From assembly GCA_023701385.1 (NCBI GenBank), contig JAMPXC010000032.1, positions 1-32,580 of the forward strand: DNA of 32,580 bases, given 5' to 3'. Position numbers and translations under genes: made by a program. Shown one piece after another: positions 8,325-32,580 of this stretch (its first letter is position 1; each line of letters opens with the position of its first letter). The DNA is from Pseudobdellovibrio sp. (GTDB taxonomy: Bacteria > Bdellovibrionota > Bdellovibrionia > Bdellovibrionales > Bdellovibrionaceae). The notes beneath the pieces are model-generated. The model made no database searches. It was not told the origin of the DNA and was given only the letters and a program-made list of their open reading frames with translations.

Positions 8325-8474
8325 TGATCAAATCACCCTTGCATATCTTACAATGAAAAACCCATGTTTTGGCCTACAGTAGCGATATATTCGTTTTAAG
8401 GCTAGTGAATTGTGGTCTCTGGCTTGCTTTAATTTCACCTTGATAGGTTTTAATTTTAGGACGTGGAGGCTTCA

Positions 8475-14364: not shown

Positions 14365-14527
14365 GGTCTTCTCCGTTAGAAAATGGAATATGGGCAAATT
14401 CGTTGATTTGTTTTTTCGGTGTTCGTAAAGCGTTTACAGTCACATAAATGAAATACGAAAAGAAAATTAAAAACCCAATGATTGTTAAGTAAGTGTCTGT
14501 AAAAAATTTTAAGCCTTCTTGTTTCAT
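14354..14527 (-). CDS. ccoQ: cbb3 oxidase small subunit CcoQ
   Basis: A 57-residue protein read from ATG 14527 to TAA 14354: MKQEGLKFFTDTYLTIIGFL and on through one TM helix (about 13-34), then a short basic tail (RTPKKQINEFAHIPFSNGED). Size, topology and position between ccoNO and ccoP are those of CcoQ, which stabilises the oxidase. An AGGAA Shine-Dalgarno precedes the ATG. CcoQ sequences are poorly conserved, so the call leans on context. Confidence 0.85.
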   Translation of the reverse strand: MKQEGLKFFTDTYLTIIGFLIFFSYFIYVTVNALRTPKKQINEFAHIPFSNGEDHGK

Positions 14528-14538
14528 AAAATTCCTCG

Positions 14539-16692
14539 TTATTTATTTTCTGCAGTTTCAGTTGTTACTGCTTTTTGGCCAAGGGCCTGTAAGTACGCAA
14601 TTAAGGCTACAATTTGTTTTTTCTCTAAGCCTTTTGGAGCACCTTGTTTTTCAAGCTCTTCAGCAATCATTTTGGCTTGTTTTTGAGCCACGATGTCAGC
14701 ATTAGCAATCGTGTCTTGGTCATACGGAACGCCTAAGTCTTTCATCACTGAAAATTCGCGGCGTAGAGAAAGAAAATCAGTATTTTTTTCTAATAACCAC
14801 GGGTAGTTCGGCATGATTGAATTTGGTGTGATCGCACGTGGGTTGATCATGTGTTGAAAGTGCCACATATCAGGATACTTTTTACCAACGCGGGCTAAGT
14901 CAGGGCCTGTACGTTTTGATCCCCATTGATGTGGACGATCCCACATTGATTCTTCAATTGTCGAAGCTGGTCCGTAACGAAGCACTTCGGCAGCAATTGG
15001 CCTGATTTGTTGAGAGTGGCAAACATAACAACCTTCAGCTACATAAACGCCGCGGCCGGCAATTTCTAAAGCTGAAAATGGTGTCGTTGTTTGCGCTGGG
15101 TTTACATATTTATGTAAAGAAAGTGTTGGATAAATTTCAATCACTGAACCTACAAGCACAGCAATAAAAGTTAAAACTGAAAATGCTAAACCCATACCTT
15201 CAAGTTGACGGTGTGGTTCATGTGATTTTTCGCTCCAACCAGTGCGAGTCACTTTCACAACAACAGGTTCAGTCGCTTCTTTCGGAGCTAACTTAATTGT
15301 TTTGTACATGTTGTAGATAAAGATCAGATATCCAGTAACGAATAACGCTCCACCAATCGCACGTACCCAGTAAAGCGGAACGATTTTAGTCACTGTTTCA
15401 ACGAAGTCAGGGTACATTAATTTACCTTCGCCGTTGATGCCGTTTAACATTAAACCTTGAGTGATTCCGGCTACCGTCATTGAAACGTAGTAAAATAAAA
15501 CACCAGTTAAAGAAATCCAGAATGAATTTTCAGCAAGCTTTGTAGAATATAATTCAGTTTTCCAAAGACGCGGAACCATCCATAACATCATCCCCATGAT
15601 TAGCATTCCATTCCAACCAAGAGCGCCAGAGTGAACGTGACCAACGATCCAATCAGTGTAGTGGCCTAAAGCTGATACTGATTTAATAGATAACAGCGGT
15701 CCTTCGAAAGTCGCCATACCGTAGAAAGTTAAAGCGGCTACGAAAAATTTAATCACTGGATTTTGAATTAATTCTTTAAACGCTCCTTTAAGAGTCATTA
15801 AACCGTTAATCATTCCGCCCCAAGATGGAGCCCATAACATCAGTGAAAAAACCATTCCTAATGATTGCGCCCAGTCTGGAAGTGAAGTGTAAAGTAAGTG
15901 ATGTGGCCCTGCCCAGATGTAAATAAAAACTAAAGCCCAAAAGTGAATGATCGATAGGCGGTAAGAATATACCGGACGATTCGCCGCTTTCGGCACGAAG
16001 TAATACATCAAACCTAAAAACGGAGTCGTTAAGAAAAACGCCACCGCATTATGACCGTACCACCATTGTACTAAAGCATCTTGAATCCCACCCCACACAG
16101 GTAAAGATTTAAGTGGAGAAATTGGAATTTCGATAGAGTTCACGATGTGCAACATCGCGACTGTAATAATTGTCGCAATGTAAAACCAAATACCAACGTA
16201 AAGATGTTTTTCGCGGCGGTTTTTAATCGTCATGAAAAAGTTGATGGCAAAAATTACCCACACAAGAGCGATTAAAATATCAATCGGCCATTCTAATTCA
16301 GCGTATTCTTTAGATTGTGAATAACCCAATGGCAAAGTCACAGCCGCACAAAGAATAACAAATTGCCAACCCCAGAAGTGAATCTTAGATAAAAAATCTG
16401 AAAACAAACGCGCTTTTAATAAACGTTGTGTTGAATAGTACATTCCGGCAAAGATCGCATTACCTGCAAAAGCAAAAATGGCTGCATTTGTGTGTAATGG
16501 ACGTAAACGACCGAAAGTGATCCATTCCATATTCATATTCATTGGCCAGTAGGCAAGTTGCAAAGCCGCAATCAAACCAAATAATAAAGCAGCAATCCCC
16601 CAGCCGAATGTGGCTAAGGTAAAATACTTAACGATTTGATCGTCGTAGACTATGTTTTCAGTTTGAGAATTATGATCAGCGTGTGCGGTCAT
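14539..16692 (-). CDS. ccoNO: fused cbb3 oxidase subunits CcoN and CcoO
   Basis: One uninterrupted 717-residue frame joins the catalytic haem-copper subunit CcoN (about 1-475) to the monohaem subunit CcoO (about 495-717). CcoN landmarks include the YGHNAVAFF helix (H214, copper ligand), GPHHLLY (H264/H265) and GHVHSGALGWNG (H352/H354). CcoO landmarks are the TM anchor at about 500-520, GCYVCHSQQIRP (CYVCH at 555-559), WGSKRTGPDLARVG and the methionine in SIMPNYPW. Most proteobacteria encode the two as separate genes. Fused forms are known in some other lineages. ATG 16692 has AAAGG seven bases upstream. An alternative ATG at 16707 overlaps the ccoS stop as ATGA and would add five residues. 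Confidence 0.96.
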   Translation of the reverse strand: MTAHADHNSQTENIVYDDQIVKYFTLATFGWGIAALLFGLIAALQLAYWPMNMNMEWITFGRLRPLHTNAAIFAFAGNAIFAGMYYSTQRLLKARLFSDFLSKIHFWGWQFVILCAAVTLPLGYSQSKEYAELEWPIDILIALVWVIFAINFFMTIKNRREKHLYVGIWFYIATIITVAMLHIVNSIEIPISPLKSLPVWGGIQDALVQWWYGHNAVAFFLTTPFLGLMYYFVPKAANRPVYSYRLSIIHFWALVFIYIWAGPHHLLYTSLPDWAQSLGMVFSLMLWAPSWGGMINGLMTLKGAFKELIQNPVIKFFVAALTFYGMATFEGPLLSIKSVSALGHYTDWIVGHVHSGALGWNGMLIMGMMLWMVPRLWKTELYSTKLAENSFWISLTGVLFYYVSMTVAGITQGLMLNGINGEGKLMYPDFVETVTKIVPLYWVRAIGGALFVTGYLIFIYNMYKTIKLAPKEATEPVVVKVTRTGWSEKSHEPHRQLEGMGLAFSVLTFIAVLVGSVIEIYPTLSLHKYVNPAQTTTPFSALEIAGRGVYVAEGCYVCHSQQIRPIAAEVLRYGPASTIEESMWDRPHQWGSKRTGPDLARVGKKYPDMWHFQHMINPRAITPNSIMPNYPWLLEKNTDFLSLRREFSVMKDLGVPYDQDTIANADIVAQKQAKMIAEELEKQGAPKGLEKKQIVALIAYLQALGQKAVTTETAENK

Positions 16693-16703
16693 AAGAGAGC
16701 CTT

Positions 16704-16859
16704 TCATTGTTTTGGTTGTCTTTGATTATCATTTAAAATGCGGTGTGCCGGGGTTTCGAGATCGTCTAACTGGCCATTACTTGCGGCCCAGAAAAAAATG
16801 CCGACGAAAACGATTCCTAATATTAAAGCCATGGGTATCATTAAAAATAAGATATTCAT
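16704..16859 (-). CDS. ccoS: cbb3 oxidase assembly protein CcoS
   Basis: A 51-residue protein from ATG 16859 to TGA 16704. It has one N-terminal TM helix (MNILFLMIPMALILGIVFVG) followed by the family signature FFWAASNGQLDDLETPAHRI. CcoS is needed for cofactor insertion into CcoN. It overlaps ccoI at its start (ATGA) and, if the longer start is used, the ccoN reading frame at its end, showing tight translational coupling. Confidence 0.93.
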   Translation of the reverse strand: MNILFLMIPMALILGIVFVGIFFWAASNGQLDDLETPAHRILNDNQRQPKQ

Positions 16860-19141
16860 TCTCTAAATCCCCATAATGTTGAAAATAAAATAATAAGTGA
16901 GCTTACCGGCATTAGCACTGCAGCCCAAAGTGGATTGATAAAACCAAATACCGCTAAAGTTCCAGCGATGGCGTTATAAGCCAGTGACAGACTTAAATTT
17001 CTTTTTAAAGTTTGGTGAATGCGTTTATTTACTTTAAAAAGTTCGACGAGTGGATTTAATCCTGAGCGTAGAAAGAAAATATCAGAGCTCGCTAAAGCGA
17101 TTTCAGCGCTGCCTTTAATCGCGATGCTGATTTGGCTGCTGCTCATAGCTAGAGTGTCGTTCACACCATCGCCAATCATTAAGCTGTGCGGGTATTTAAT
17201 GATAATTTCTTTTTTATCTTCAGGGTATAATTCTGAATAAATGTGATCGCGTTTAAGGCCACATTTTTCGCCGATTGATAAAGCCTTACGTTTTTTATCA
17301 CCTGAAATCAGGTAGCAGTTTTTTCCTTCGGCTTGAAGTTGTGCAATAATATCACAGGCTTCTTCGCGGATTTGATCTTGTAAATAAATGCGGCTAATGA
17401 CTTCTTTGTTTTTATAGAGAGCAATCGCGATATCGATACTTTCATCATAGAGGTTTGAAGATAGAGTTTTAAGTTCATAAAGGTCATTATTTAAATAACC
17501 TCTTACGCCACTGCCAAAGATTTCGCTGTGCTCAGCAAAGTGAATGTCGTTTTTCCAGTTTTTAAAGTGCGCGCGTAAAGCGAAAGCTACGGGGTGATAA
17601 GAGATCTTTTCTAGACTTACAAGTGCATCAATAGTTTCGGCATTTAAATTTTCTGGCCAAGTTTCACAGACTTGCAATTGGCCGTAAGTTAATGTGCCGG
17701 TTTTATCAAAAAAGATATTTTGAATCTGGCTCATTTTTTCAAACACATTAGCATTGCGAACTGAAATTCCTTTTTTCTGTGATTTACGAAATGCCATAGC
17801 CATTGTCAGCGGGCTTCCAAACGCTAAAGCACAAGGGCACGCAACCACGATTAATGCTAAAGCACGGTGAAATGATTCAGTAAAATCAATCATGAAACCT
17901 AAACCAACAAAAACGAAAGTCGCTAAGATAAAAACATAAAGAATCAGTTTTTCAGATAGACGATCAGCCAAAGTTAAATAGCTGTTTTTAGATAATAGAT
18001 TTTCCTGGCTTTTACTTAACAGATCAGCGATACGAGTTTGATTAATCGGTTTTTCGCAAACCATTGAAATAGAAGCTGATAGCAATTTATAGCCAGCAAA
18101 AAGATGCATGCCTTTTGTGAAAGTGTACGGAATATTTTCACCAGACATAAATGACGTATCAACTAGGGCCATGTCAGAAAGTAAAACGCCATCTACTGGG
18201 ATCGCCTGATCTTGGCTTACTTTAAAAATTTGGCCTTGTTTAATATTTTCAGTAATCACTGTTGATGAGTTATCAGCCAAAGCGTAAGTTTCAGTGCGAA
18301 TTTGTGAATGTATATTTTGCGGTGATAAAAAACGGTGCTGCGCTTTTTTAACAAAGAAGCGCGCGACTAAGATTAGAAAGATAAAGCTAGCTGTTGAGTC
18401 AAAGTAAAATTGGTCGCCACCAGTAAGTAGACTATATATAGACAAGCTTGAGCTTGTGATTAAGGCGATCACGATCGGTAAATCGATATGCACCTTTTGC
18501 ATTTTTAAACTACCCCAGGCGCCGCGATAGAAGGGAGTAGCTACGTAAAACAAAATAGGTAAAAACAGAATTAAATTAAGCCACTTAAAAATTGTCAGTA
18601 ATGTGCCAGTGGCACCAGTGTAAATCGCGATAGAAAAAAGCATGATGTTGCCAGCCAAAGCTCCAGCTAAGGCAATGCGTTTTAATTCTTGGCGAGTTTC
18701 AAGATGTAATTTTTCATCGCTATTTTCAGAGGATTTAATTACAGAAAAGTCATAACCCATAGCTTTAATTAACGAGGCGATATCAGAAAGTTTTCCTTCT
18801 GAATCAAGTTCGATAAATAATTCAGAATTACTGATATTTAAACGTGATTCTTTACAGTGGGAATTCATCTCTGCGATTTGTTCTAAGAGATGAACACAGC
18901 TTGAACATTGAATGCCGTGAATGAAAAATTTAAATCTGCGGCGATTGTCTTTTAATTGATAAAGTTTTTGATTTTCAGGTAAGTCTAAATAAGCGTATTG
19001 TGCTTCACTCTGTGAAGCTTTGTTCACTAGTTCAGAAAATCCGCCATCGAGCATTTCACAAGCGTGGCAGCAGTACATACTTAAAGACAAAGTCCCGCAG
19101 TATTTACATGGATTTTTAGTTCTGACCAGATCGAAAGACAT
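16856..19141 (-). CDS. ccoI: copper-transporting P1B-type ATPase CcoI
   Basis: A 761-residue ATPase that supplies copper for CcoN maturation. The order of parts is: a Cys-rich N-terminal module (CKYCG at 12-16, CCHAC at 24-28), a heavy-metal-associated domain with CSSC (79-82), eight expected TM helices, the actuator loop with SGEN where most relatives have TGE (333-336), the transmembrane CPC (435-437), the phosphorylation site DKTGTL (479-484), an HP motif (YHPVAFAL) and GDGVNDTLA. The N-terminal Cys module is typical of FixI/CcoI rather than CopA. An AAAGGA Shine-Dalgarno precedes ATG 19141, and two FNR-like boxes lie just upstream. It is the first gene of the cco operon. Confidence 0.95.
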   Translation of the reverse strand: MSFDLVRTKNPCKYCGTLSLSMYCCHACEMLDGGFSELVNKASQSEAQYAYLDLPENQKLYQLKDNRRRFKFFIHGIQCSSCVHLLEQIAEMNSHCKESRLNISNSELFIELDSEGKLSDIASLIKAMGYDFSVIKSSENSDEKLHLETRQELKRIALAGALAGNIMLFSIAIYTGATGTLLTIFKWLNLILFLPILFYVATPFYRGAWGSLKMQKVHIDLPIVIALITSSSLSIYSLLTGGDQFYFDSTASFIFLILVARFFVKKAQHRFLSPQNIHSQIRTETYALADNSSTVITENIKQGQIFKVSQDQAIPVDGVLLSDMALVDTSFMSGENIPYTFTKGMHLFAGYKLLSASISMVCEKPINQTRIADLLSKSQENLLSKNSYLTLADRLSEKLILYVFILATFVFVGLGFMIDFTESFHRALALIVVACPCALAFGSPLTMAMAFRKSQKKGISVRNANVFEKMSQIQNIFFDKTGTLTYGQLQVCETWPENLNAETIDALVSLEKISYHPVAFALRAHFKNWKNDIHFAEHSEIFGSGVRGYLNNDLYELKTLSSNLYDESIDIAIALYKNKEVISRIYLQDQIREEACDIIAQLQAEGKNCYLISGDKKRKALSIGEKCGLKRDHIYSELYPEDKKEIIIKYPHSLMIGDGVNDTLAMSSSQISIAIKGSAEIALASSDIFFLRSGLNPLVELFKVNKRIHQTLKRNLSLSLAYNAIAGTLAVFGFINPLWAAVLMPVSSLIILFSTLWGFRE

Positions 19142-19173
19142 TTATTCTTTTCCTTTATAAGAAAAGAATAACC

Positions 19174-19207
19174 TTGAAGGTGGTCAAACGATCATGATCC
19201 ACATCAT
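19174..19207 (-). promoter_or_regulatory. two FNR/CRP-like boxes upstream of ccoI
   Basis: TTGAAGGTGGTCAA (19174-19187) has the TTGA-N6-TCAA core of an FNR/Anr box, and ATGATCCACATCAT (19194-19207) matches 8 of the 10 defined positions of TTGAT-N4-ATCAA. Their centres are 20 bp apart (about two helical turns). They lie between the FNR-type gene and ccoI, 33-66 bases before the ccoI start. An AT-rich segment with TATTCT/TATAAA between them and the gene could supply the -10 element. Regulation by the neighbouring FNR-type protein is inferred. Confidence 0.6.
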
Positions 19208-19221
19208 GTTTTGAAAACTAA

Positions 19222-19950
19222 TTAATAAGCGCCGTGCAGTTTTTCTATTAACTTTTGTTTGTTAATAAGCTTAATCACGCGGCCTTGGGATTGGTCGATA
19301 TAGCCTTCTTTTTCAAATTGAGCCAGTGTACGGATCACTGTTTCAGGAGTTGTTCCGGCCCATTCAGCGATTTCTTTACGTGTCCAATTTTGATGCGAGA
19401 AGTGTTCTTGTAAGAAAATTAAAGCTTCAGCGATGCGCTCTGAAGCATCTTTGTCTATTTGCGATGTCCATTTTTCTTCGGCAATTCGTAAGTCTTTAGA
19501 AAGAGCTTCAAGAATTTTAATAGTTACTTCGGGATAGTTTTTAAAAATATCCATCACAACATTTTTAGGAATAAAGCAAATCTCTGATGTTTCAACCGCA
19601 ACAGCTGTAGCTTGATATTGTTCATTCGAGAATAAAGAACGGTAACCTAAGGCTGATCCGGGGCCTAAATAGCGCAGCGTGTGCGTTTGGCCGTGTTCAC
19701 TGGTCATTTCTAATTTTACTAAACCCGCAGAAATCGTGAATAGACCTAAAGGTTCATTGCCTTGATAGAAAATCGTCTGTTGTGGTTTAAAGGTTGTTTT
19801 TTGCTTTGTTGTCTCAACAAGGCGCCATACCTCAGGTGATGTTGAGCAGATAATATTCGATAAACGATACATGCAGTTTTCACACAGATTTTTATCGTGT
19901 GAATGACATGGATTTGCATCTTCCAATGGTTTTTTAACAGCTCTTAACAT
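19222..19950 (-). CDS. CRP/FNR family regulator, FNR-type with N-terminal cysteines
   Basis: A 242-residue regulator from ATG 19950. A GTG two codons upstream is possible but less well placed. The N-terminus carries C15, C23, C26 and C35, and C125 lies in SEICFIP at the place of the internal cluster ligand of FNR, so an oxygen-labile [4Fe-4S] cluster is likely although the spacing differs from C-x2-C-x5-C. A cyclic-nucleotide-binding-like barrel (about 50-130), dimer helix and winged helix follow. The recognition helix reads TTPETVIRTL, keeping the E and R of the FNR E-x-x-S-R motif but with Ile for Ser. It lies on the same strand just upstream of the cco operon, which it probably controls. 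Confidence 0.9.
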   Translation of the reverse strand: MLRAVKKPLEDANPCHSHDKNLCENCMYRLSNIICSTSPEVWRLVETTKQKTTFKPQQTIFYQGNEPLGLFTISAGLVKLEMTSEHGQTHTLRYLGPGSALGYRSLFSNEQYQATAVAVETSEICFIPKNVVMDIFKNYPEVTIKILEALSKDLRIAEEKWTSQIDKDASERIAEALIFLQEHFSHQNWTRKEIAEWAGTTPETVIRTLAQFEKEGYIDQSQGRVIKLINKQKLIEKLHGAY

Positions 19951-20438
19951 AACCACATCTTAACATTTTTTTGCTCAAAGTTTTATGTAAATATCTACAA
20001 ACCTAGTTACACTGAGGCTGTTATATTGCTTATTATTTGATCTGGACCATGAAAAACTGAAATTTTCTGAAATTGTTTTTCGGGGTCATATTGACGCTGG
20101 AAAAACCTGTGTTTTGTGGAAAACTCTGTGGATTTAGTTGATAACTCACTCTCAAAAACGAATATATAACTAAAGATTCGTTTACGCGCAAAGAAAATTA
20201 CGCAACGTGTAATCAGAAAGTGACTGTTCGACACCACGACAGTTTCTAACAAATTTCAGATAAAAAATGAAATTTCATGACAGGTTTAGGGTGAAAACTC
20301 TAATTAAATAATGCCCTATTTTTTGTCATAAATCAGGCTGATTTTGGTAACCAAATTTTATAAATAAACATACGAAAATAGCTACGTGGTAATTTCAAAA
20401 TGTTTGGTATAGAATGTTTTACGTACACATCTTTTAGT
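19951..20438. other. AT-rich region between the FNR-type gene and ssrA
   Basis: About 490 bases with no gene I can support. Short frames here are AT-rich and lack ribosome sites. It should hold the promoter of the FNR-type gene (minus) and that of ssrA (plus). A TATAGAAT element at about 20408-20415 is a candidate -10 for the tmRNA precursor. It also holds a DnaA-box-like pair (20115-20135) and the 12-bp palindrome ATGAAATTTCAT (20267-20278). Confidence 0.5.
20115..20135 (-). promoter_or_regulatory. pair of DnaA-box-like sites
   Basis: TGTGGAAAA (20115-20123) and TGTGGATTT (20127-20135) are TTTTCCACA and AAATCCACA on the minus strand, both fitting a TCCACA-core DnaA box preceded by A or T. 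Two sites 12 bp apart in an AT-rich gap is more than expected by chance, but no other oriC hallmark or dnaA gene is present. They could mark DnaA control of a neighbouring promoter. Confidence 0.35.
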
Positions 20439-20789
20439 GGGGGTGTACTGGCTTCGACGTGGGAAGTGAAGCAAAGGGAGCATACAGGGGCGCATGTGGA
20501 CCTCTTTAAAAACGTGCATTTATTAGTTGCAAACAACGACTATCAATTAGCAGCTTAGTTCTGCTACGGTTTACAAGTTGATCGACGGTGTCGATAGGTA
20601 AACCGACGATAATGCCGTCTCGGACTTCGCTGGTTTCTCTGGAGTGAAGTCTTAATAGTTATCCAGGGGATTTTCTTTTGAAACTTTGTTCGTAGAGGTT
20701 CTTAAGATTTAATAAAATACGAACTAAGTATGTAGCGCCTTTCTGTCGATCTCTTGCGGACCCGGGTTCAATTCCCGGCACCTCCACCA
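20439..20789 (+). ncRNA. ssrA: transfer-messenger RNA (tmRNA)
   Basis: Rescues ribosomes stalled on broken mRNAs by acting first as an alanine tRNA and then as a short message. The 5' end GGGGGTGTACTGGCTTCGACG and the 3' end GGGTTCAATTCCCGGCACCT-CCACCA are diagnostic. The 7-bp acceptor stem pairs with one G-U, and the 3' CCA is encoded. The tag frame starts at GCA 20529 and ends at TAG 20556-20558, encoding ANNDYQLAA, a normal LAA-ending proteolysis tag. Length is 351 bases. The 3' end is a common insertion target for genomic islands, and gene content changes immediately after it. Confidence 0.97.
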
Positions 20790-20804
20790 ATTACTCAGTT
20801 TTAG

Positions 20805-20843
20805 AACCCGAGCGTCCGCGTAGGATTTTCGGGTTTCTTTTTT
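20805..20843 (+). terminator. intrinsic terminator after ssrA
   Basis: AACCCGA (20805-20811) pairs with TCGGGTT (20829-20835) and is followed by a T-rich run (TTCTTTTTT). It lies 16 bases past the tmRNA CCA end, so it may be native to ssrA or carried by the island end. Confidence 0.75.
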
Positions 20844-21031: not shown

Positions 21032-21403
21032 GTGATCATCAGTGGGACAAGAAAATATCGAACTAAAAAGCGCAGTGATCGGATTGTGATGACTCCGGCT
21101 GCGAGGCTTCTTAAGTTGCTGCGTAATGAATCCGGCTTATCGATGATAAATGCAGCGGCATTGATAGGAGTGTCTGATAGTTACATTGCACATATTGAAA
21201 CTGGTCGGATGGATGTGCCAAGTGGTGAGAAATTGAAGCGGCTTGTTCATGTCTATGGAGTTCGGTCCACAACTTATTTTGAACGGCTCAGTAAGTTTAG
21301 TGAAAAGCCTGATCCAAGAGTTGAACTTGGGGAGTTGCTGAAGCGGATGCGCGATAAAGAAGTTGAAACGGTACTAGCGGTAGCGCGTGGGCTGTTATCT
21401 TAA
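21032..21403 (+). CDS. XRE-family helix-turn-helix regulator
   Basis: A 123-residue DNA-binding protein started at GTG 21032, six bases after AAGGAG. Residues 20-75 form the HTH_3 fold: TPAARLLKLLRNESGLSMIN, then AAALIGVSDSYIAHIETGRM, the latter containing the recognition helix. The remaining residues are helical and probably form a dimer interface. It is the first gene of the island after ssrA and converges on the DUF4062-baseplate gene with a 4-base overlap, so the two may be functionally paired. A long inverted repeat lies upstream. Confidence 0.85.
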   Translation: MIISGTRKYRTKKRSDRIVMTPAARLLKLLRNESGLSMINAAALIGVSDSYIAHIETGRMDVPSGEKLKRLVHVYGVRSTTYFERLSKFSEKPDPRVELGELLKRMRDKEVETVLAVARGLLS

Positions 21404-22653
21404 CTTTCTTGATCCTCAAAGTTCCATTTTACAGTAGTTGAACACTCAATAGGTTCAGCTAATCCTTGCATGAAAAGTAATAAGTTTAAATCAACACTGA
21501 TTCTTTTTATGTTTGAAATTGACTTAATTTCAACATGATCGAGACACGGCAGAGAAGGCCACTTATTGCCCTGTTTACCATCTATCGGTCGAGTTAAAGT
21601 TTCAATTACGTCGAATTTTATAAGTAACTCAGCCAGCTCTGGTGAATCAGCATAGGCATTTAAAATGTTATAAAGGTTGCTTCCCATCTCCGGGCGGAAT
21701 ATCCATTCGCCGCGATTACAATTTAAATTCATTTTTAAAACCTGCGGTAATCGTTCGACACCGGAGACCATCATAAGGTCTCCATTTTTCACAAGCATAT
21801 CGCCAGTGGCATCCATTCGAATGTCTTTAAGCTGACTCCACTGAGGCCAAGGCATTCGAGGAGTAGAAGGTTGTGTTAAGAATTGAGCTTCGATCTTCCA
21901 TAATGTACTAGCCTCTTTGCTAACGAGAATTTCATCGACAATAAGATCTTCACGGCGACCATCGCCTAGATCAATAAAGCTTACAGCATCTCCTTTGCTA
22001 AATTGTTTAATGTAACCAATTACAGAAGAGTTTGTTGTTGAGAAATTAACAGAAAGAGTTGAGGTTGTGGTTTTATAACCTGAAGGTAAAATTAAATCAC
22101 CTAGCATAATCCAATTCATGCCAATGCGAAGGGTATGATTTTTAATAAAGCTCTCAACAGCGGTTATCATATTAACTTCATTTTCAAATGGACTAACGGT
22201 GTGCTTACTCTTCCATTTGCTTATCAATGTGGTGACCTTATCTTCTTTTGGTTCGGCTTTACTTGTGAGTAAACACAATTCATGGTTCCAAGAAATTGCA
22301 TGATTATATTCATCTTCAGTGGCTGAGCAGTCTGCAATTATGTCTGGGCCGTAGCTTTTATCTAGTATGCCACAGTAAACTTTCGATTTTTTAAGGGCAT
22401 CAAGATAGACTTCACGGGGTTGTCTTTTCTGTGAGCTGCCGAATGTCTCGCCTACCTCCCATCCCATGATGGGGTATCCATACTCTTGAAATTTCTCGGC
22501 CACAAGTTTTCTAAGCTGTTCCATTCCCGTAAAACGCGAACTTAAAAATACAGGATGATGTGCAGTTGTCTTTTTGAGAAATTCAAAGGGAATGTCAGTA
22601 GGCTTAGAGTACTCGATTATTTTAGGATAAGGTAAAGTGGTGGGTTTTCTCAT
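21400..22653 (-). CDS. DUF4062 domain fused to phage baseplate gp25/W-like domain
   Basis: A 417-residue protein from ATG 22653, chosen because AGGAG lies five bases upstream. An earlier in-frame ATG at 22689 falls inside a palindrome. Residues 34-130 resemble DUF4062, a TIR/Rossmann-like domain: VFLSSRFTGMEQLRKLVAEK, SKVYCGILDKSYG, then the acidic TEDEYNHAI motif and a hydrophobic strand. Residues 190-265 are an unassigned beta-rich middle. Residues 277-330 read DIRMDATGDMLVKNGDLMMV, SGVERLPQVLKMNL, RGEWIFRPEMG. This is the D-x-G-D...GDL...G-x-x-x-x-x-Q...GEW...G pattern of gp25/GPW (or DUF2634) baseplate wedge proteins. No other tail genes are nearby, so it is not part of a visible prophage. 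I infer a defence or phage-interference role and do not recognise an exact family. Confidence 0.6.
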   Translation of the reverse strand: MRKPTTLPYPKIIEYSKPTDIPFEFLKKTTAHHPVFLSSRFTGMEQLRKLVAEKFQEYGYPIMGWEVGETFGSSQKRQPREVYLDALKKSKVYCGILDKSYGPDIIADCSATEDEYNHAISWNHELCLLTSKAEPKEDKVTTLISKWKSKHTVSPFENEVNMITAVESFIKNHTLRIGMNWIMLGDLILPSGYKTTTSTLSVNFSTTNSSVIGYIKQFSKGDAVSFIDLGDGRREDLIVDEILVSKEASTLWKIEAQFLTQPSTPRMPWPQWSQLKDIRMDATGDMLVKNGDLMMVSGVERLPQVLKMNLNCNRGEWIFRPEMGSNLYNILNAYADSPELAELLIKFDVIETLTRPIDGKQGNKWPSLPCLDHVEIKSISNIKRISVDLNLLLFMQGLAEPIECSTTVKWNFEDQES

Positions 22654-22673
22654 ATAGACTCCTGACATGAGTA

Positions 22674-22700
22674 TATAGTGGTTCAGCATGAACCGCTATA
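22674..22700. promoter_or_regulatory. long palindrome (candidate operator)
   Basis: TATAGTGGTTCA (22674-22685) and TGAACCGCTATA (22689-22700) are inverted copies with one mismatch (11 of 12) and a 3-base centre. The site lies 21 bases upstream of the DUF4062-fusion start, in the gap shared with the divergent XRE gene at 22817. Size and symmetry are typical of a dimeric HTH repressor operator. Confidence 0.65.
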
Positions 22701-22816: not shown

Positions 22817-23164
22817 GTGATCAAACCAGCTCGTAAAAAACACCAAAGCCCTTTTGCAAAGAATCTTAAAGCGATCCTTGCTGAGCGGGGCATCTCACAA
22901 AAAATTGCAGCACAGATGGCAGGAACGACAACCTCAACGGTTAATGATTGGATTGCTGGGTCTCAGCCAGCGGATTTAATTTCAGTACAGAAGTTAAGTC
23001 GTGCTTTAAAAATCGACTTTGAATACTTGCTGACCAGCTCACAGAGCCGCATCAATCTGCAAGAGCTTTCGATGACCGAACTATTTGATTCTGAACCTGA
23101 TCCATCATTTAGCGGCATCTTTGAAATTACCGCTAAAAGACTTCGCAGAAAGAAAAAGGAGTAG
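22817..23164 (+). CDS. XRE-family helix-turn-helix regulator
   Basis: A 115-residue repressor-like protein from GTG 22817, with GGAGGAG seven bases upstream. The HTH spans about 10-66: SPFAKNLKAILAERGISQKI, then AAQMAGTTTSTVNDWIAGSQ. The tail is acidic then basic (SEPDPSFSGIFEITAKRLRR). Only three bases separate it from the next gene, so it leads an operon with two exported proteins and a secreted nuclease, and it is divergent from the DUF4062-fusion gene. It may be a switch that keeps both units in check. Confidence 0.85.
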   Translation: MIKPARKKHQSPFAKNLKAILAERGISQKIAAQMAGTTTSTVNDWIAGSQPADLISVQKLSRALKIDFEYLLTSSQSRINLQELSMTELFDSEPDPSFSGIFEITAKRLRRKKKE

Positions 23165-23591: not shown

Positions 23592-24095
23592 ATGAGCCGT
23601 TGGTTTGCTATCATCATACTACTATCCGGCAATGCCTTTGCTAAACTTGATGAGACTTTAGCTCCATCTAAAACTTGCGAGCATGATGCCCTAAACTTCC
23701 GTTGCGTAAAGTTCATTAAAAACTACGATGCAGATACGGTTACATTCTTTATTCCAAATGTTCACCCGTTACTTGGTGAAAAGATCTCAGTTCGGGTTCG
23801 GGGCATTGATACCGCTGAAAAAAAAGGTAAGCACCCCTGTGAAAAAGATCAGGCATTTCAAGCACAAGAGCTAGTCGGCAAAACCCTTGAGGCAGCTAAA
23901 AGAATCGATCTAGTAAATGTGGACCGAGACAAATACTTCCGCATCCTTGCCGACATTCAAGCCGATGGCAGATCAATTAAAGACATCTTAGAAGAAGCTG
24001 ACCTCGGATATAGCTACAACGGTGGATCCAAGCAAAATGTTAACTGGTGTGAGTTTGGTAAGAAGCGAGTTCCAACTTCAAAGGATAGCCCATGA
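23592..24095 (+). CDS. exported thermonuclease-like (SNase) nuclease
   Basis: A 167-residue member of the staphylococcal-nuclease fold with a signal peptide (cleavage near NAFA|KL), so it is predicted to act in the periplasm or outside the cell on DNA or RNA. The catalytic layout is preserved: calcium-binding Asp in NYDADTVTF (D46/D48), R68 and D73/E76 in RVRGIDTAEKKGK, and R117 in DKYFRILADIQADG. Added cysteines (C29, C38, C83, C153) probably form disulphides. It follows the small exported gene with no gap and overlaps the next gene by 4 bases (ATGA). In a predatory host it could help digest prey nucleic acid. On an island it could instead degrade incoming DNA. Confidence 0.88.
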   Translation: MSRWFAIIILLSGNAFAKLDETLAPSKTCEHDALNFRCVKFIKNYDADTVTFFIPNVHPLLGEKISVRVRGIDTAEKKGKHPCEKDQAFQAQELVGKTLEAAKRIDLVNVDRDKYFRILADIQADGRSIKDILEEADLGYSYNGGSKQNVNWCEFGKKRVPTSKDSP

Positions 24096-25602: not shown

Positions 25603-26148
25603 ATGGCACAATATGTTTATGCGAGGGTCTCGACGCAAAATCAAGAGACAGAAAACCAAATTATTCATCTTAGACGAATTTATCCCGAAGCGGCTTTTAT
25701 CTCCGAGACAGCGAGTGGCGCAAAGTCACGACCGGAGCTTGATGCACTTGTTGCAAAACTTCAGCGGGGCGATGAACTGATTGTAAGTAGTTTGGATCGC
25801 TTAGGTCGTAAGACGAGCGAGATTTTGGTTCTTATCGAATCGCTTGAAAAGCGTGGCGTGATTTTGAAGTCATTGAGAGAAGGTTTAGACTACTCAACAG
25901 TATCAGGAAGATTGGTTACGCAAATTTTAATTAGTGTTTCTGAGCTAGAAAGATCCCTAATTAGTATGAGGACTAAAGTTGCACTAGCAGCAAAGCGCGA
26001 GAAAGGTATTTTTGGTGGTCGCCCTCGAGTTCATGGTGATGCGATAATAGCAAAAGCCCGTGAACTAAGATCGCAGGGCAAGTCATTAACGGCAATAGCA
26101 AGTGAGACAGGAGTTTCAAAGACACGTCTTCATCAGCTTCTTAAATAA
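25603..26148 (+). CDS. small serine recombinase (resolvase/invertase family)
   Basis: A 181-residue site-specific recombinase that makes a phosphoserine link to DNA. The catalytic serine is in YVYARVSTQNQ (S10). The invariant motifs ETASGAKSRPELDALVAKLQ, DELIVSSLDRLGRKT and the long E-helix (LVTQILISVSELERSLISMR) follow, and a C-terminal HTH lies at about 150-180 (KSLTAIASETGVSKTRLHQL). Size matches Pin/Tn3-type enzymes. It may resolve dimers of the element or invert a segment. A palindrome-rich stretch lies directly upstream. Confidence 0.93.
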   Translation: MAQYVYARVSTQNQETENQIIHLRRIYPEAAFISETASGAKSRPELDALVAKLQRGDELIVSSLDRLGRKTSEILVLIESLEKRGVILKSLREGLDYSTVSGRLVTQILISVSELERSLISMRTKVALAAKREKGIFGGRPRVHGDAIIAKARELRSQGKSLTAIASETGVSKTRLHQLLK

Positions 26149-26314
26149 GATAGCCGGGTATCGTTTTTTCAGATAGAGAATTGCGTATTTTTACCCTCTC
26201 TGGTCAGATATTAGTCTGCAAAATTTTTATAAAGAGCAAAATAAACGGAACTTTAGTTAGTTGTGCTTGATGAGAGAGAGTGGGAGCAGTAATACCTCGA
26301 TGGGGGATTGTTGC

Positions 26315-26986
26315 GTGAAAGAATTTTTCAAGACTCTTGCGGGACTCAAAGTAGATTTACCGTACTCAGGTAAAGTCAGAGGACTTGAAGCTCAACTGAT
26401 CTGGCAGTTCCTTAGATACAATCAAAAATACAGAGCAGGTTACGACAAATTAAAAGTCGAAGCTGCGAACGATGACTCTGGTGAATTACCAATGTTTTTT
26501 GCAAAGGCATGGTGTTTATCAACAGCAGTCGATTACAATCTTGAAACTTTACCAATCGAGCTTGACGACGATGGAGTTGACCTGTCGCCGTACTTTGATT
26601 ACCAGGCTGTGTGGCGGTTACCTAAATGGAAGTATCTAAAAGATTGGGGTGAGATTCTTTTGCCTGAAGAGCAACAGATTGAAATGTTGAATCCTCATGC
26701 TCCTGCAGATCAAGTGTTGCGTTATTTTACTAGCCAAAAACCAACAGCATCAACAAGCACATTCCGCAGCTCTCGAGCAAAACTGCTAGTCGAATACATT
26801 GTTTGTCATCATTATTTAGAGACTCTTAGTATGGGGCCAACGGAGTTTAGCCCGATCTATCATGAGATATTTGTGACCGGTAGGAATGACGTGCTTCAAT
26901 CAAAAGGCCTAAAAGAAAAAGTAAATGGCTTTAATGAGGTGGTGGCTCTAGCCCCGTGGTGTTTTTTTACTCCACCGCATCAATGA
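26315..26986 (+). CDS. DUF6499-like element protein (function unknown)
   Basis: A 223-residue protein from GTG 26315, where GGGGGA lies seven bases upstream. Longer in-frame starts at 26261, 26270 and 26300 have poor ribosome sites. Residues 22-41 (GLEAQLIWQFLRYNQKYRAG) match the W-x-F-L-R-x-N-x-x-Y-R signature of a small domain found in regulatory proteins of integrative elements, often annotated DUF6499 or transcriptional-regulator-like. The remainder is acidic then Ser/Thr-rich and lacks known motifs. The fixed stop falls inside a 10-bp palindrome that probably ends the transcript. Confidence 0.55.
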   Translation: MKEFFKTLAGLKVDLPYSGKVRGLEAQLIWQFLRYNQKYRAGYDKLKVEAANDDSGELPMFFAKAWCLSTAVDYNLETLPIELDDDGVDLSPYFDYQAVWRLPKWKYLKDWGEILLPEEQQIEMLNPHAPADQVLRYFTSQKPTASTSTFRSSRAKLLVEYIVCHHYLETLSMGPTEFSPIYHEIFVTGRNDVLQSKGLKEKVNGFNEVVALAPWCFFTPPHQ

Positions 26987-27013
26987 TCTAGAGATTCTCT
27001 AGATCAATTTTCT
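26984..27013 (+). terminator. intrinsic terminator spanning the stop codon
   Basis: TGATCTAGAG (26984-26993) and CTCTAGATCA (26997-27006) form a perfect 10-bp stem with an ATT loop, followed by ATTTTCTT. The TGA stop of the preceding gene is the first three bases of the stem. Confidence 0.75.
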
Positions 27014-27038
27014 TAAGATTTAGTTTTACGGCATACGG

Positions 27039-27058
27039 ATAATAACAGGAGTTATTAT
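27039..27058 (+). promoter_or_regulatory. Shine-Dalgarno displayed in a hairpin tetraloop
   Basis: ATAATAAC (27039-27046) and GTTATTAT (27051-27058) are perfect 8-bp inverted repeats around AGGA (27047-27050), and the ATG of the rep-like gene follows at 27061. The loop is the only good Shine-Dalgarno for that gene, so the stem could gate translation of the initiator. Confidence 0.55.
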
Positions 27059-27060
27059 TT

Positions 27061-28125: not shown

Positions 28126-28218
28126 TTATATTAAGTATAAATTTTGTAGGGGCCGCTATCAATACTCACCTAACTACAGTGGGACGGTCAAATACGCTAT
28201 TAAGGAGAGGGCGCATCT

Positions 28219-28230
28219 ATGGATAAATGA
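28219..28230 (+). CDS. possible minimal leader frame (Met-Asp-Lys-stop)
   Basis: ATG GAT AAA TGA follows a strong purine-rich ribosome site (AAGGAGAGGG, 28202-28211) and overlaps the next gene start by ATGA. Its short length leaves open whether it is translated. It could couple initiation to the zinc-ribbon gene. Confidence 0.3.
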   Translation: MDK

Positions 28231-28529
28231 TTTCTGAAGTTTCACAGTGCCAACCCGGTAAAGCTGGGGATATCAAAGCGATTGATAAAGTTTGCCACTG
28301 CTGCGGGCGTAGTAAGCCTCTGGCGGACTTTCATCTGAATAAGTCAAAGCAGGACGGGCGTGATACTCAATGTAAGCAATGTGTGAATGATCGAAAGAAA
28401 GCAAAGAGAAGGCGTAGCCGCGAACGAGAAGACATCGAGCTGAACATCACAGTAACGCGATCAAAAAAATTCTCTGCGGCGATGGATGGAATACTAAGTT
28501 TGATTTGCAAAGAGATGATGGGGGGCTAA
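28227..28529 (+). CDS. small zinc-ribbon protein
   Basis: A 100-residue basic protein. Residues 22-58 form a CxxC...CxxC zinc ribbon (C23/C26 and C49/C52): VCHCCGRSKPLADFHLNKSK then DGRDTQCKQC, resembling the Cys-rich modules found in phage and mobile-element proteins and beside HNH nucleases. A Lys/Arg-rich stretch (KKAKRRRSRERE) follows, suggesting nucleic-acid binding. No catalytic HNH histidines are present. Its stop codon overlaps the start of the large serine recombinase by one base, so it may be an accessory or excision factor for that recombinase, by context only. Confidence 0.6.
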   Translation: MISEVSQCQPGKAGDIKAIDKVCHCCGRSKPLADFHLNKSKQDGRDTQCKQCVNDRKKAKRRRSREREDIELNITVTRSKKFSAAMDGILSLICKEMMGG

Positions 28530-30367
28530 TGTCAAAGGATGCAGTACAATACTTAAATTGGCCTACGGTTAAGCCAACTATTCATGCGGCCATATACGCC
28601 CGATATTCATCTCAGCTTCAAAGTGCTGAGTCTGCTAATGATCAGGTTGACGGCGTTTTGTACCGTCTGAATCGTAATCTGCTTCCACTTATTAAGTTCC
28701 CTATTGATAAATACAACATCGTAGTCCCGCCTCATCTTATTTTCAAAGACGAAGCTAAGAGCGGACGGACGGCAAGCCGTACCGGGTATGAACGATTTTG
28801 GGAGGCTCTTAAAAGTGGTGAGGCGCAAATTGGTTTGGTTGATGACCTGTCAAGAATCATCAGAGAATTAGGTGAGCAGATTGATAAGTATCGATTGCTT
28901 AAAATAATAGGAGCTGAGCTTTACAGTATTCGTGATAACACTAGCTCCGAAGGTCCTAATTCCAAGGCTTTTTTTCAGATCAAGGGACTTGTAAATGAGC
29001 TAAGCAACGATATTCATGCACAGCGAACTCGGCGTGGTCAGGAAGCTCGTGTGCTTAAGGGTTACAGTACCGGGGATATTTGTTACGGCTATCATTCTGA
29101 AGCAACTCAGATTCAAAAAATTGGATCAATGGAAGTTAAGTCACATTTTAAAATCTGTATTAACCCAGATGAGGCTAAGATTGTTAATTTGATCTTCGAT
29201 CTTAAAATTAAAGGATTGGGACTATCAGCTATCGCCAAAGAGCTTAATAAAAGAAAAATCCCCTCAACTTCGCGTGGTCAGAAGATCACCGGACGCGAAG
29301 TTAATTGGTCGTCATCACTTATTCGAAAAATCTTAACTCGTGAAAAGTATGTTGGAACGTGGTCTTGGGGTAGGACAAGTCGGCTTCTACATCCAGAGAC
29401 AAAAAAATTTGTAATGCAAGACCAACCAAAAGAGCGATGGCTTACCCATCTTGAGGGGGCTGATGTTAGAGATGATCTAGTGATTGTACCTATTGAAAAA
29501 TGGCAACAGGTACAACAAATGCTTGCAAAGACCACAGCTAAGTTTCGTGAAGCTCGAAATAATATGGAAGCTGTCAGATCGGTAAAAAATGTTGGTTCAA
29601 AAAGTGAAACTCTTTTGGCAGGGGTGTTGATATGCGGTGAGTGCGGTTCGCAGATGCTTCAAATCACGGGACAAAAAGGCGGATACTACGGCTGTATCAT
29701 ACACCACCGAAAAGATAAAACTCGTTGCAGTAATAATAGGTTACTTAGTCGTAAAAAAGCTGAATCAAAAATTATAGATTTATTAAAGTCAGTCCTTCTT
29801 CAGCCGCAGTATTTAGATGCTGCTACGAAACGGGCCAATGAAATTATTAAGACCAGTCTTCGAGCCGCACCGGAAGTGATCAAAGCATTAGAAATAAAAA
29901 GGCGTGATGCTGCACGCGAGATTCAGAATCTTATTAAGTTTGTTGCTCTTCACGGTGATGTATCAGCAACGGTTAAAGATAATTTAGCTAGCAAAGAACA
30001 CGAGCTTGCATTTTACACTGAGCACATTAAAGCGCTGAAGGTAACTAATGTGGATAAGATGTTGTTAACTCCATTTGCTCTTAAAGCAAAGTTTGAGAAG
30101 CTTGCGGAGTATTTTGAAAAAGACGCGGTCCTTGCCAATGCGTATCTTAGGCAGCTACTTCCGCAGGGGCTTAAGTGTGTGCCGGTGCAAAGGACTTTTA
30201 AAAAAAATCATAATCAAAACAATAGCTTTTGGTCGATTGCGGGGACAATGTTGGTTGATGAGTTTTTGTGTTTACCTAAAATTACTTACACGCAACAGCG
30301 GTCCGATATTCAGAGCGATATGCCATGTAACGATTTAGCATTGCTAATAGGACCAATGACTAAATAA
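28529..30367 (+). CDS. large serine recombinase
   Basis: A 612-residue recombinase from ATG 28529 (GGGGGG upstream, one-base overlap with the previous stop). The N-terminal resolvase domain has the catalytic serine in YARYSS (S27), DEAKSGRTASRTGYERFWEA and DDLSRIIREL. The central Recombinase domain runs about 185-330 (RRGQEARVLKGYSTGDICYG, LSAIAKELNKRKIPS). A zinc beta-ribbon (CGECGSQ...YYGCIIHHRKDKTRCSN) lies at about 365-400, followed by a coiled-coil segment. This layout is that of phage-integrase-type large serine recombinases, which integrate or excise elements at att sites. It is the best integrase candidate for the island, although ssrA 3' insertion is more usual for tyrosine integrases. 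Confidence 0.93.
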   Translation: MSKDAVQYLNWPTVKPTIHAAIYARYSSQLQSAESANDQVDGVLYRLNRNLLPLIKFPIDKYNIVVPPHLIFKDEAKSGRTASRTGYERFWEALKSGEAQIGLVDDLSRIIRELGEQIDKYRLLKIIGAELYSIRDNTSSEGPNSKAFFQIKGLVNELSNDIHAQRTRRGQEARVLKGYSTGDICYGYHSEATQIQKIGSMEVKSHFKICINPDEAKIVNLIFDLKIKGLGLSAIAKELNKRKIPSTSRGQKITGREVNWSSSLIRKILTREKYVGTWSWGRTSRLLHPETKKFVMQDQPKERWLTHLEGADVRDDLVIVPIEKWQQVQQMLAKTTAKFREARNNMEAVRSVKNVGSKSETLLAGVLICGECGSQMLQITGQKGGYYGCIIHHRKDKTRCSNNRLLSRKKAESKIIDLLKSVLLQPQYLDAATKRANEIIKTSLRAAPEVIKALEIKRRDAAREIQNLIKFVALHGDVSATVKDNLASKEHELAFYTEHIKALKVTNVDKMLLTPFALKAKFEKLAEYFEKDAVLANAYLRQLLPQGLKCVPVQRTFKKNHNQNNSFWSIAGTMLVDEFLCLPKITYTQQRSDIQSDMPCNDLALLIGPMTK

Positions 30368-30452
30368 AAAAATACCTATTTTTTTTAAGATCTTGTCATA
30401 AGGCTAGCAAGATTTGGGACTAAATCGCCGATATTTGTTTAGGGTAAACATC

Positions 30453-31025
30453 ATGGGAACATCAGTATCACATCCTTCACCAAGTGGCGTTGAGTGGAAG
30501 GAAGCAAAAGAATCTATAAAAGAAGGGGCACAGCCTCATAATATCGTTCAAAATGTACTTGTAGCATTTGGTGCTGAGTATGGGGCTGAGGCTCAAAAAG
30601 TTCTTGTTGATGCCGGAGTAAAAAAAGTAGCAGAAATTTTAGATGCTAAACTCCAAGGTGCAGTAATAAGAAACGAAATGCTTGTTGCAACCTTTATCAA
30701 TGATGCAAGACGCGAATTAGCACTATCTCAAAGTAACTCATTTTTTGCCGAGCTTGCGCTGTCAGCAGCTTCAAAAGCAATTCTGCAAGGTGGAGAAGCT
30801 CCATCAAAATCATTCGCTGCCGACTTTGCATCTAAAGTTATTGATTATGTAGTTTCTCGTGATCTTCCTTCTACAATAGGCTCGAAAGGTCTCACTAATC
30901 TTGAATCGGTTAAAAGACTGTTGAATTCGGTTTCAGAAAATTTCAAAGCTCGTGCGGAAGCAGGAACAGATACTAATTCGATTCGTATTCTTGAAAGCTT
31001 ATTAGCTATACCTCGGAGACCATAA
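30453..31025 (+). CDS. QatB-like small protein of a QueC-associated defence pair
   Basis: A 190-residue protein whose ATG 30453 follows TAGGGT. An upstream in-frame TTG at 30414 is less likely. The N-terminus is MGTSVSHPSPSG, and the MGTS start followed by a Ser/Pro/Gly stretch is a hallmark of QatB proteins. The rest is mainly helical (NVLVAFGAEYGAEAQKVLVD, FFAELALSAASKAILQGG) with Ala-rich segments. The stop codon overlaps the start of the QueC-like gene by one base, so the two are co-translated. In characterised Qat systems QatB works with the QueC-like QatC, the ATPase QatA and the nuclease QatD. Reports that QatC-type enzymes modify the QatB N-terminus with a deazaguanine group would make the Gly2 end functional. 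Only modest similarity is visible, so this remains a context-supported call. Confidence 0.55.
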   Translation: MGTSVSHPSPSGVEWKEAKESIKEGAQPHNIVQNVLVAFGAEYGAEAQKVLVDAGVKKVAEILDAKLQGAVIRNEMLVATFINDARRELALSQSNSFFAELALSAASKAILQGGEAPSKSFAADFASKVIDYVVSRDLPSTIGSKGLTNLESVKRLLNSVSENFKARAEAGTDTNSIRILESLLAIPRRP

Positions 31026-32580
31026 TGAATGAGTTTATCGTCTCTGTAGATAGAAATCGAAGTGAGTTGAGGGTGACGACTACCGGTCGAGTGCATCTAC
31101 CGTATGGTCGTGAAGGACAACTATGGAATGACATTGAACGGCCGTCGAAGTCTGCACCCGATGGTCAGTTGTCTGCCGAAGCTCAAGATTTAATTGATTT
31201 TGCAACAGCCATTTTTCATCTAGATAAAATTTGTCTTCGAGGTGAACGTGAACAATGGGTTAGAAAGATTCATTTAAAGATTGGGCTAAGAAATCCTGCT
31301 CGATTCAATCTTGTTGCAGATGATCTTAAATGGGCTCTTTCGATTCTTGGTGGGGATAATTTTACTTTTGAAGTTACAGCAATACGTCATGTACCACGTG
31401 AATCAATTAGAACACCAAAGCGTGTGAGAGATTGGGGGCAACTTACTGATGTTGCCTTGTTGTCAGGTGGTCAAGACAGTTATGCGGGCGCAGCTAGAAT
31501 TCTTGAAGATCAAAGAAGCAACCCACTTTTAGTGCGTGTGAACACAAGAGATAAATCAAATCTCCAAGAAATTATTGGGAGATTCAGACAAAAATTTAAT
31601 CGGCAGCCTGCATTTTATTCGCAAACGGTGGCATCTCCAAAGGATGTAAATCAAACGAATAAAGAACGAGAGACTACCCAAAGATTACGTTCTTTTTACT
31701 TTTTAGCTATAGGATCAGTCCTTGGACAGGCTCATAATGTTAACAGACTTCATATCAATGAGAATGGTATAATGGCGATTCATTTACCACTTGATGCGGC
31801 TCGCTCTTCGACTTTTTCTACTCGTACAGCTTACCCGCAGTTTCTAAATCTATTTCAAGGAATTGTAAGAAGATGGTTGGGACATCAAATTGAAATTCGT
31901 AACGCCTTTGCTCTAAATACTAAAACAGAAGTGTTGCAAGAGTGTAGTCGTGTAGGTGTACAGCGTGGCCTCGGACATACAGTTTCATGTGCTCATTCAG
32001 CTACTATTCAACAAACGGTTAAGCGTCAATCTTCCAAAGACCATCTGATGGCCGATGAGGCTCCAGATCTTCATTGTGGCTACTGCTTCCCATGTCTTCT
32101 TCGACGTATTTCAATGTGGAGAGCTGGCTTAGCTAACGATGATGTTGAATATGCTACAGATCCTTTTAAAGTTTTAATTGATGGATCAGCAGATAATTAT
32201 GAGTTCGTCTATGAAGCTAGTTCTGCGGTGCTTGGGTTAATAAGATTGACGATTAAATTCGAGAATCCTGACTTTATATCAATGCTGTCGGAGTATCCGC
32301 AGATTGCCGAATGTGCAACTGTTCTTGGTGAGGGATCTATGAATGCAATAATAGATTTACACAAAAGATTTGCACAAGATGTGAGAGCTTATATCGCAGC
32401 AAATGCTTCATATCTTGAATTTTTCTTTGATCAACAAAGATCGAGACAGTTAGAGCAACAAGTAGCCGCGATAGCTTCAGATCAAGTATTAGATGCTGCA
32501 CTTCAAAAAGCTGAAGTAGATGCTTCAGACGCTTTCTATAAACAAATGAGTAAACTTTTTGATACTTTACGTTTGCGAGT
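31025..32580 (+). CDS. QatC-like QueC-family enzyme (3' end outside window)
   Basis: The frame runs open from ATG 31025 through the right edge (518 complete codons). ALLSGGQDSYAGAARIL (145-160) is the PP-loop ATP-binding site S-G-G-x-D-S of 7-cyano-7-deazaguanine synthase (QueC) relatives. LRSFYFLAIG (221-230), HINENGIMAIHLPLDAARSS (243-262) and STRTAYPQFL (265-274) are blocks typical of the defence-type QueC-like proteins. CGYCFPCLLRR (351-361) with C322 makes the C4 zinc site. The N-terminal 135 residues precede the catalytic domain as in QatC. The visible part already exceeds the usual QatC length of about 430, with an extra helical/coiled-coil tail from about 440. The rest of the gene and any qatA/qatD genes are not in the window. 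Confidence 0.75.
   Translation, partial: MNEFIVSVDRNRSELRVTTTGRVHLPYGREGQLWNDIERPSKSAPDGQLSAEAQDLIDFATAIFHLDKICLRGEREQWVRKIHLKIGLRNPARFNLVADDLKWALSILGGDNFTFEVTAIRHVPRESIRTPKRVRDWGQLTDVALLSGGQDSYAGAARILEDQRSNPLLVRVNTRDKSNLQEIIGRFRQKFNRQPAFYSQTVASPKDVNQTNKERETTQRLRSFYFLAIGSVLGQAHNVNRLHINENGIMAIHLPLDAARSSTFSTRTAYPQFLNLFQGIVRRWLGHQIEIRNAFALNTKTEVLQECSRVGVQRGLGHTVSCAHSATIQQTVKRQSSKDHLMADEAPDLHCGYCFPCLLRRISMWRAGLANDDVEYATDPFKVLIDGSADNYEFVYEASSAVLGLIRLTIKFENPDFISMLSEYPQIAECATVLGEGSMNAIIDLHKRFAQDVRAYIAANASYLEFFFDQQRSRQLEQQVAAIASDQVLDAALQKAEVDASDAFYKQMSKLFDTLRLR

Follow-up and report, generated by a model that had tools for sequence, protein, structure and literature searches.

The protein studied here joins a DUF4062 domain, a beta-barrel and a domain resembling the sheath initiators of contractile phage tails. 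We incline, with modest confidence, to the view that it is a Swarozyc-like single-protein abortive-infection system, in which a mimic of the tail baseplate would act as sensor and the assembling tail of an infecting phage as trigger. The gene lies on a genomic island of Pseudobdellovibrio sp., within a stretch of 32,580 nucleotides (the window), together with the following features:

20439..20789, plus strand: tmRNA gene (ssrA), left edge of the island (ARAGORN).
21032..21403, plus strand: XRE-type regulator, tail-to-tail with the fusion gene with a 4-base overlap (PF13560, 2.2e-13).
21400..22653, minus strand: fusion protein of 417 aa, DUF4062 plus beta-barrel plus gp25/sheath-initiator-like domain (open reading frame, ribosome site, Pfam and PHROG matches).
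21454..21834, minus strand: gp25/sheath-initiator-like domain, about residues 274-400 (phrog_120, hhalign, PDB sheath initiators).
21850..22140, minus strand: middle beta-barrel, about residues 172-268 (region homologous in HNH relatives; Cupriavidus model).
22297..22551, minus strand: DUF4062 (TIR-like NADase) domain, residues 35-119 (PF13271, E 1e-11).
22315..22317, minus strand: Glu113, predicted catalytic residue in SATEDEY (aligned with the T-E of KpSwz SFTEKAF).
22817..23164, plus strand: XRE-type regulator, divergent from the fusion gene (PF01381, 3.7e-10).
28505..30367, plus strand: large serine recombinase (PF07508/PF00239; phrog_95, 9e-58).
31025..32578, plus strand: QatC homologue, second defence gene of the island, cut by the contig end (PADLOC QatC, E 6.8e-52).

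At its longest the open frame spans 21400-22689 on the minus strand. The ATG at 22653, which has an AGGAG-like ribosome site before it, is the likely start and gives the 417-aa form; the longest open frame obtained by chance in 100 shuffles of the island was 199 codons. A first-pass annotation, made from the letters alone, had described a DUF4062 domain and a gp25-like domain fused in one frame, and this was borne out by profile comparison of both ends (PF13271 at 1e-11; hhalign probability 98).

The N-terminal domain of the 417-aa form scores 45.3 bits against PF13271, above the curated cut-off of 24.7, and a profile built from this domain and one Deinococcus protein finds KpSwz (PDB 10wc) at 1.1e-8, the match being confined to 10wc residues 7-98. 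T112-E113 of the fusion protein aligns with the T-E of KpSwz, the Glu of which lies at 10wc chain position 82; we infer that this is E97, assuming that the chain starts at residue 16 (a 15-residue construct offset), and the alignment predicts that the catalytic Glu is conserved in the fusion protein as E113. A 2026 preprint describes DUF4062 as a TIR-like NADase, Swarozyc, and reports that KpSwz depletes NAD+ to give abortive infection, that E97 is required, and that binding of the phage portal by the C-terminal auxiliary domain is the trigger (PMC13174449). By analogy with KpSwz the fusion protein is probably an NADase, and the link to immunity that had been suggested for its TIR-like N-terminus gains support from this published abortive-infection role. 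The Deinococcus DUF4062 protein (L005 4908-6155) matches the fusion protein over the NADase part and the linker, and its C-terminus gave no match to the gp25-type module (hhalign probability 0.2). It has a His at the expected position of the catalytic Glu (SATHIEY), and transposase genes stand on either side of its gene.

The C-terminus of the fusion protein matches two baseplate wedge families (phrog_120 at 1.3e-9 and phrog_975 at 1.8e-6), as well as Sheath_initiator/DUF2634 (PF10934) at 3.5e-4, in this case with 21.1 bits, under the curated cut-off of 32.9. Compared with real sheath initiators by hhalign, the family profile gives a probability of 98 and an E-value of 2e-13, and solved sheath initiators in the PDB match it at about 1e-5. 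As judged from these profiles, the kinship of the C-terminus with sheath initiators is firm, in agreement with the gp25-like pattern first read from the letters. No tail genes were found within the window, and PF04965 (GPW_gp25), Baseplate_J and Phage_sheath_1 had no match anywhere in the host genome, a profile search of which also places the fusion gene outside any tail or injection-machine cluster; the description of the fusion as stand-alone therefore holds. Since the host genome is without a recognisable gp25, baseplate-J or sheath gene, the gp25-like domain is not a component of any resident tail. A search of 369 genomes of the phylum brought up no further copy of the module. One further match in the phylum (6e-4) is an ordinary gp25 from genome G363 (L022 1408-1821), the gene for which seems to sit in a contractile injection or tail operon.

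The C-terminal ~245 aa of the fusion protein are homologous end to end with a family found in P2-like prophages, plasmids and chromosomes (phrog_34329; match at 5.4e-9 over residues 156-377 of the 417-aa form), the members of which begin with an HNH domain, the N-terminus of the fusion protein being DUF4062 and not HNH. In tblastn the C-terminal half matches the 'lysogenic conversion protein' ORF2 of P2-EC46 at 5e-6, and ORF2 is laid out as an HNH nuclease followed by a middle region and a gp25-like domain, both homologous to the fusion protein. The HNH part is of the CBASS/SAVED-HNH effector type (PADLOC Effector 2e-20, SAVED_HNH 5e-18). HNH members occur in Yersinia P2-like phages, on plasmids of Rhizobium, Bradyrhizobium, Aureispira and Pseudoalteromonas, and in genomes of Pantoea, Cupriavidus, Martelella, Ensifer and Rhizobium (seven loci in a genome scan with an HNH-only alignment), and most copies of the module are on plasmids or islands. 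Invariant positions are common to the fusion protein and to proteins of three classes and Bacteroidota. By homology, then, one C-terminal module is joined to two unrelated effector domains, DUF4062 and HNH, and a module with two unrelated effectors is the usual pattern of immune receptors. The DUF4062-gp25 combination itself is a single case, no second such protein having been found among phages, plasmids, viral contigs or the 369 genomes of the phylum; the two-domain architecture that had been proposed for a search of other genomes thus did not recur as such, while its C-terminal module did, fused to HNH.

In E. coli the HNH-gp25 gene is present in 5 of 5,426 genomes. The copy inspected (P2-EC46) is in a cargo locus, with the P2 sheath gene on one side and the tail-fibre-assembly gene on the other; it runs opposite to the tail genes and has its own annotated promoter; P2-EC46 retains its own W gene. 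Homologues encoded as normal baseplate parts of tail operons, the arrangement that the first-pass annotation had named as telling against its own reading, were accordingly not what we found, and its other such condition, a predicted structure that speaks against a gp25-like C-terminus, was not encountered either. It had also pointed to defence genes around homologues as worth scoring, and such genes are present beside the HNH members (Lit, bSEFIR, Abi, CD-NTase). Lit adjoins the gene in E. coli P2, bSEFIR is located 23 bp downstream of it in Cupriavidus, and a CD-NTase cyclase and Abi_2 (AbiD)/PD-T4-5-like genes are near it in Ensifer, the cyclase lying about 3 kb upstream in Ensifer L028 and a nucleotidyltransferase occupying the equivalent place in R. 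leguminosarum. Matching loci on Rhizobium plasmids have Abi genes, and in Bosea ABC-three-component (ABC-3C) genes stand beside a truncated copy.

Several features of these loci were recorded in passing. The HNH-gp25 gene of the Yersinia P2-like phage is annotated too short, with homology beginning upstream of the annotated start, and another cargo spot of this phage (L003 856-3005) encodes an AriA-like ATPase and a DUF4435 protein, a PARIS-like pair. The copy in Ensifer aridi (L029 7635-8905) is frameshifted into overlapping frames. On plasmids of Sphingomonas and Rhizobium (L017 7914-9251; L018 about 8001-9200) the same HNH domain is joined to an ATP-binding domain of the AAA type, and these proteins are another type of HNH receptor.

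The resemblance to three sister genomes breaks off at 20791-20817, and we therefore place the beginning of the island at the 3' end of ssrA. The setting originally described for the fusion gene, between two XRE genes in an ssrA island, is correct (PF01381, PF13560, ARAGORN), and the divergent regulator at 22817..23164 is a possible repressor of the fusion gene. Two serine recombinases are encoded on the island, as is a Rep of the rolling-circle type (weak PF02486). The large serine recombinase is likely the integrase of the island, and the series of resolvase, weak Rep_trans initiator and large serine recombinase (25603-28529) suggests that the island is carried by an integrated plasmid or phage-like element. 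A second ssrA-end repeat was not found in the host genome; the contig ends with the window. Before QatC (region 30414-32578) a 203-aa ORF without a match in PADLOC occupies the position expected for qatB; upstream of QatC there is a serine recombinase, and QatA was not seen there. Elsewhere in the window, a small protein at 23592-24095, one of three small exported-looking proteins in a row, begins with a signal-like segment and shows a weak likeness to staphylococcal nuclease (2.5e-4). A block at 11884-20056, including genes for cytochrome oxidase (CcoG, CcoNO), a metal ATPase and Crp, is missing at the same place in the sister genome G046, where its flanks are nearly adjacent (L043 3356 and 3496).

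The full-length AlphaFold model of the fusion protein, made from a 10-sequence alignment, has a pLDDT of 36. The module of the Cupriavidus relative (253 aa) was modelled at pLDDT 64 overall, with residues 1-90 at 81-90. VIA-align gives T6SS Hcp as the best match to the barrel of this model (Z 6.6, rmsd 2.5, 84 aligned), along with PilZ barrels (5.9), lambda tail tube V (5.8) and T4 gp19 (5.0), all of these Z values falling in the tool's own non-decisive range. Sequence searches found no relatives of the middle domain outside its own family, and from the model we tentatively assign it a tail-tube/Hcp-like fold. The second half of the model follows the helix-helix-three-strand order expected of the gp25 fold, at low confidence (pLDDT mostly 35-65). 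With the module model Foldseek returned nothing below 0.001 in the PDB or BFVD; gp25-like proteins appear in the BFVD list as weak matches at ranks 14, 16, 22 and 26, weak because the gp25 half of the model is poor.

In the mechanism that we propose, the DUF4062 TIR-like NADase, an activity presumed from KpSwz, would stay inactive before the trigger, and the C-terminal module would mimic the site of a contractile tail where tube, baseplate and sheath meet. Late in infection the module may dock on the tail or baseplate that the incoming phage is building, or co-assemble into it. Several copies would then gather, and the clustered TIR-like domains would destroy NAD+, killing the cell before phage release; in the HNH relatives crowding on the tail would switch on the HNH nuclease instead. 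The sequence comparisons support the domain identities, the catalytic Glu, the module in common with HNH nucleases, the defence context and the lack of a resident tail, and from these we infer the tail as the trigger and oligomerization or clustering as the switch. Precedents for such triggers are the portal in the case of KpSwz (PMC13174449), a phage tail tube protein in that of DSR2 (PMC11290490) and a capsid protein that triggers another bacterial immune system (PMC9712102). The first-pass annotation had thought of sensing or poisoning of tail assembly, or of a decoy wedge, and of these a sensing role seems to us preferable to decoy or poison. What stands of its interpretation is the fusion, the link to immunity and the lack of tail genes; the modular fusion seen in the HNH relatives, the extra beta-barrel and the published NADase/abortive-infection role of DUF4062 are added here.

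The main rivals to a tail-triggered sensor are a non-tail trigger and a direct block of tail assembly. The trigger could be something other than the tail, e.g. another late protein, the module sensing this or a general infection cue with a gp25 fold reused without tail contact. Gp25-like folds do exist outside tails (IraD/gp25-like naming occurs among the PDB matches), and KpSwz employs a different auxiliary domain for the portal (PMC13174449); however, the domain has its closest relatives among phage sheath initiators and the barrel that precedes it is also most tail-like by VIA-align, and we consider this reading fairly unlikely. Slightly less probable still is a poison of tail assembly, in which the module would enter the phage baseplate and block completion of sheath or tail, the N-terminal enzyme being secondary. 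The resemblance of the module to tail parts (gp25 by hhalign, the barrel by VIA-align) would suit such a role, as would the example of Tab, a prophage protein that protects the population by blocking tail assembly (PMC10884400), but the fusion of the same module to two unrelated effector types and the retention of the catalytic Glu count against a pure poison, which would need neither.

It is very improbable that the module is a SAVED-like second-messenger receptor for a CBASS cyclase. In its favour are the CBASS SAVED-HNH character of the HNH domain, the cyclase near the gene in Ensifer L028 and the nucleotidyltransferase at the equivalent place in R. leguminosarum; against it, neither the window nor the E. 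coli P2 prophage nor the Yersinia phage stretch showed a cyclase, and the homology of the module is to a tail protein rather than to SAVED. We give hardly any credence to the idea of a tail-associated enzyme that virions or an injection machine would package and carry to target cells: several HNH relatives do reside in P2-like prophages, but genes for gp25, baseplate-J and sheath are lacking from the host genome, copies are mostly on plasmids or islands, and the P2-EC46 gene is a cargo gene with its own annotated promoter, opposite in strand to the tail genes. No more credible is an accidental fusion or decaying tail-gene remnant without function, for which the single known DUF4062 member and the frameshifted HNH copy (L029) might speak, against the intact 417-aa frame with its ribosome site and the invariant positions common to three classes and Bacteroidota.

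Beyond the tail-triggered abortive-infection reading of this one protein, we raise as a possibility, to be held more loosely, a new class of modular anti-phage receptors that would use a captured tube-to-sheath junction of contractile tails as sensor and become built into or onto the tail of the invader, the ring symmetry of the tail activating the attached effector, NADase or HNH. Neither the NADase type nor the HNH effector is new, nor is the sensing of phage structural proteins. The literature searched yielded no receptor with a sheath-initiator-like sensor common to two effector classes and no paper on DUF4062 with gp25 or DUF2634 with HNH, and a receptor with such a sensor is absent from PADLOC 2.0. 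If the idea is true, contractile-tail assembly would join portal, capsid and tail-tube proteins among the structures recognized by immunity, here via a mimic of the tail, and the DUF4062 NADases, themselves described only recently, would gain a new auxiliary domain. With the two-effector family a test is within immediate reach, since E. coli P2 prophages already carry the HNH version beside Lit.

Among known proteins, phage sheath initiators (gp25/W, PF04965; DUF2634, PF10934) have in common with the fusion protein a core of hairpin, helix and GE(x)nP(x)nG segment, but they are usually single-domain proteins of about 110-140 aa within tail operons, whereas the fusion protein is enzyme-linked in a genome without tail genes. 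The P2-EC46 ORF2 family (phrog_34329; 'DUF2634' or 'GPW/gp25 family' protein in RefSeq), no description of whose function was found in the literature searched, shares the barrel, the gp25-like domain and defence-gene neighbours, and differs in carrying a CBASS-type HNH nuclease where the fusion protein has DUF4062. CBASS SAVED-HNH effectors (Cap5 type) have an HNH domain of the same type as these relatives but a SAVED receptor in place of the tail-like module, and DUF4062 replaces HNH in the fusion protein. DSR2, a SIR2 NADase, resembles the fusion protein in the proposed logic, by which a tail component triggers NAD+ loss, while its enzyme and sensor are unrelated to those of the fusion protein. 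We know of no tail-like domain in DSR2. Closest is Swarozyc (KpSwz, PDB 10wc), which like the fusion protein has an N-terminal DUF4062 with the catalytic T-E, places effector before sensor in one protein, and occurs in defence islands (PMC13174449); its auxiliary domain is an HTH/winged, portal-binding one, where the fusion protein instead has the beta-barrel and gp25-like domain of the phrog_34329 module.
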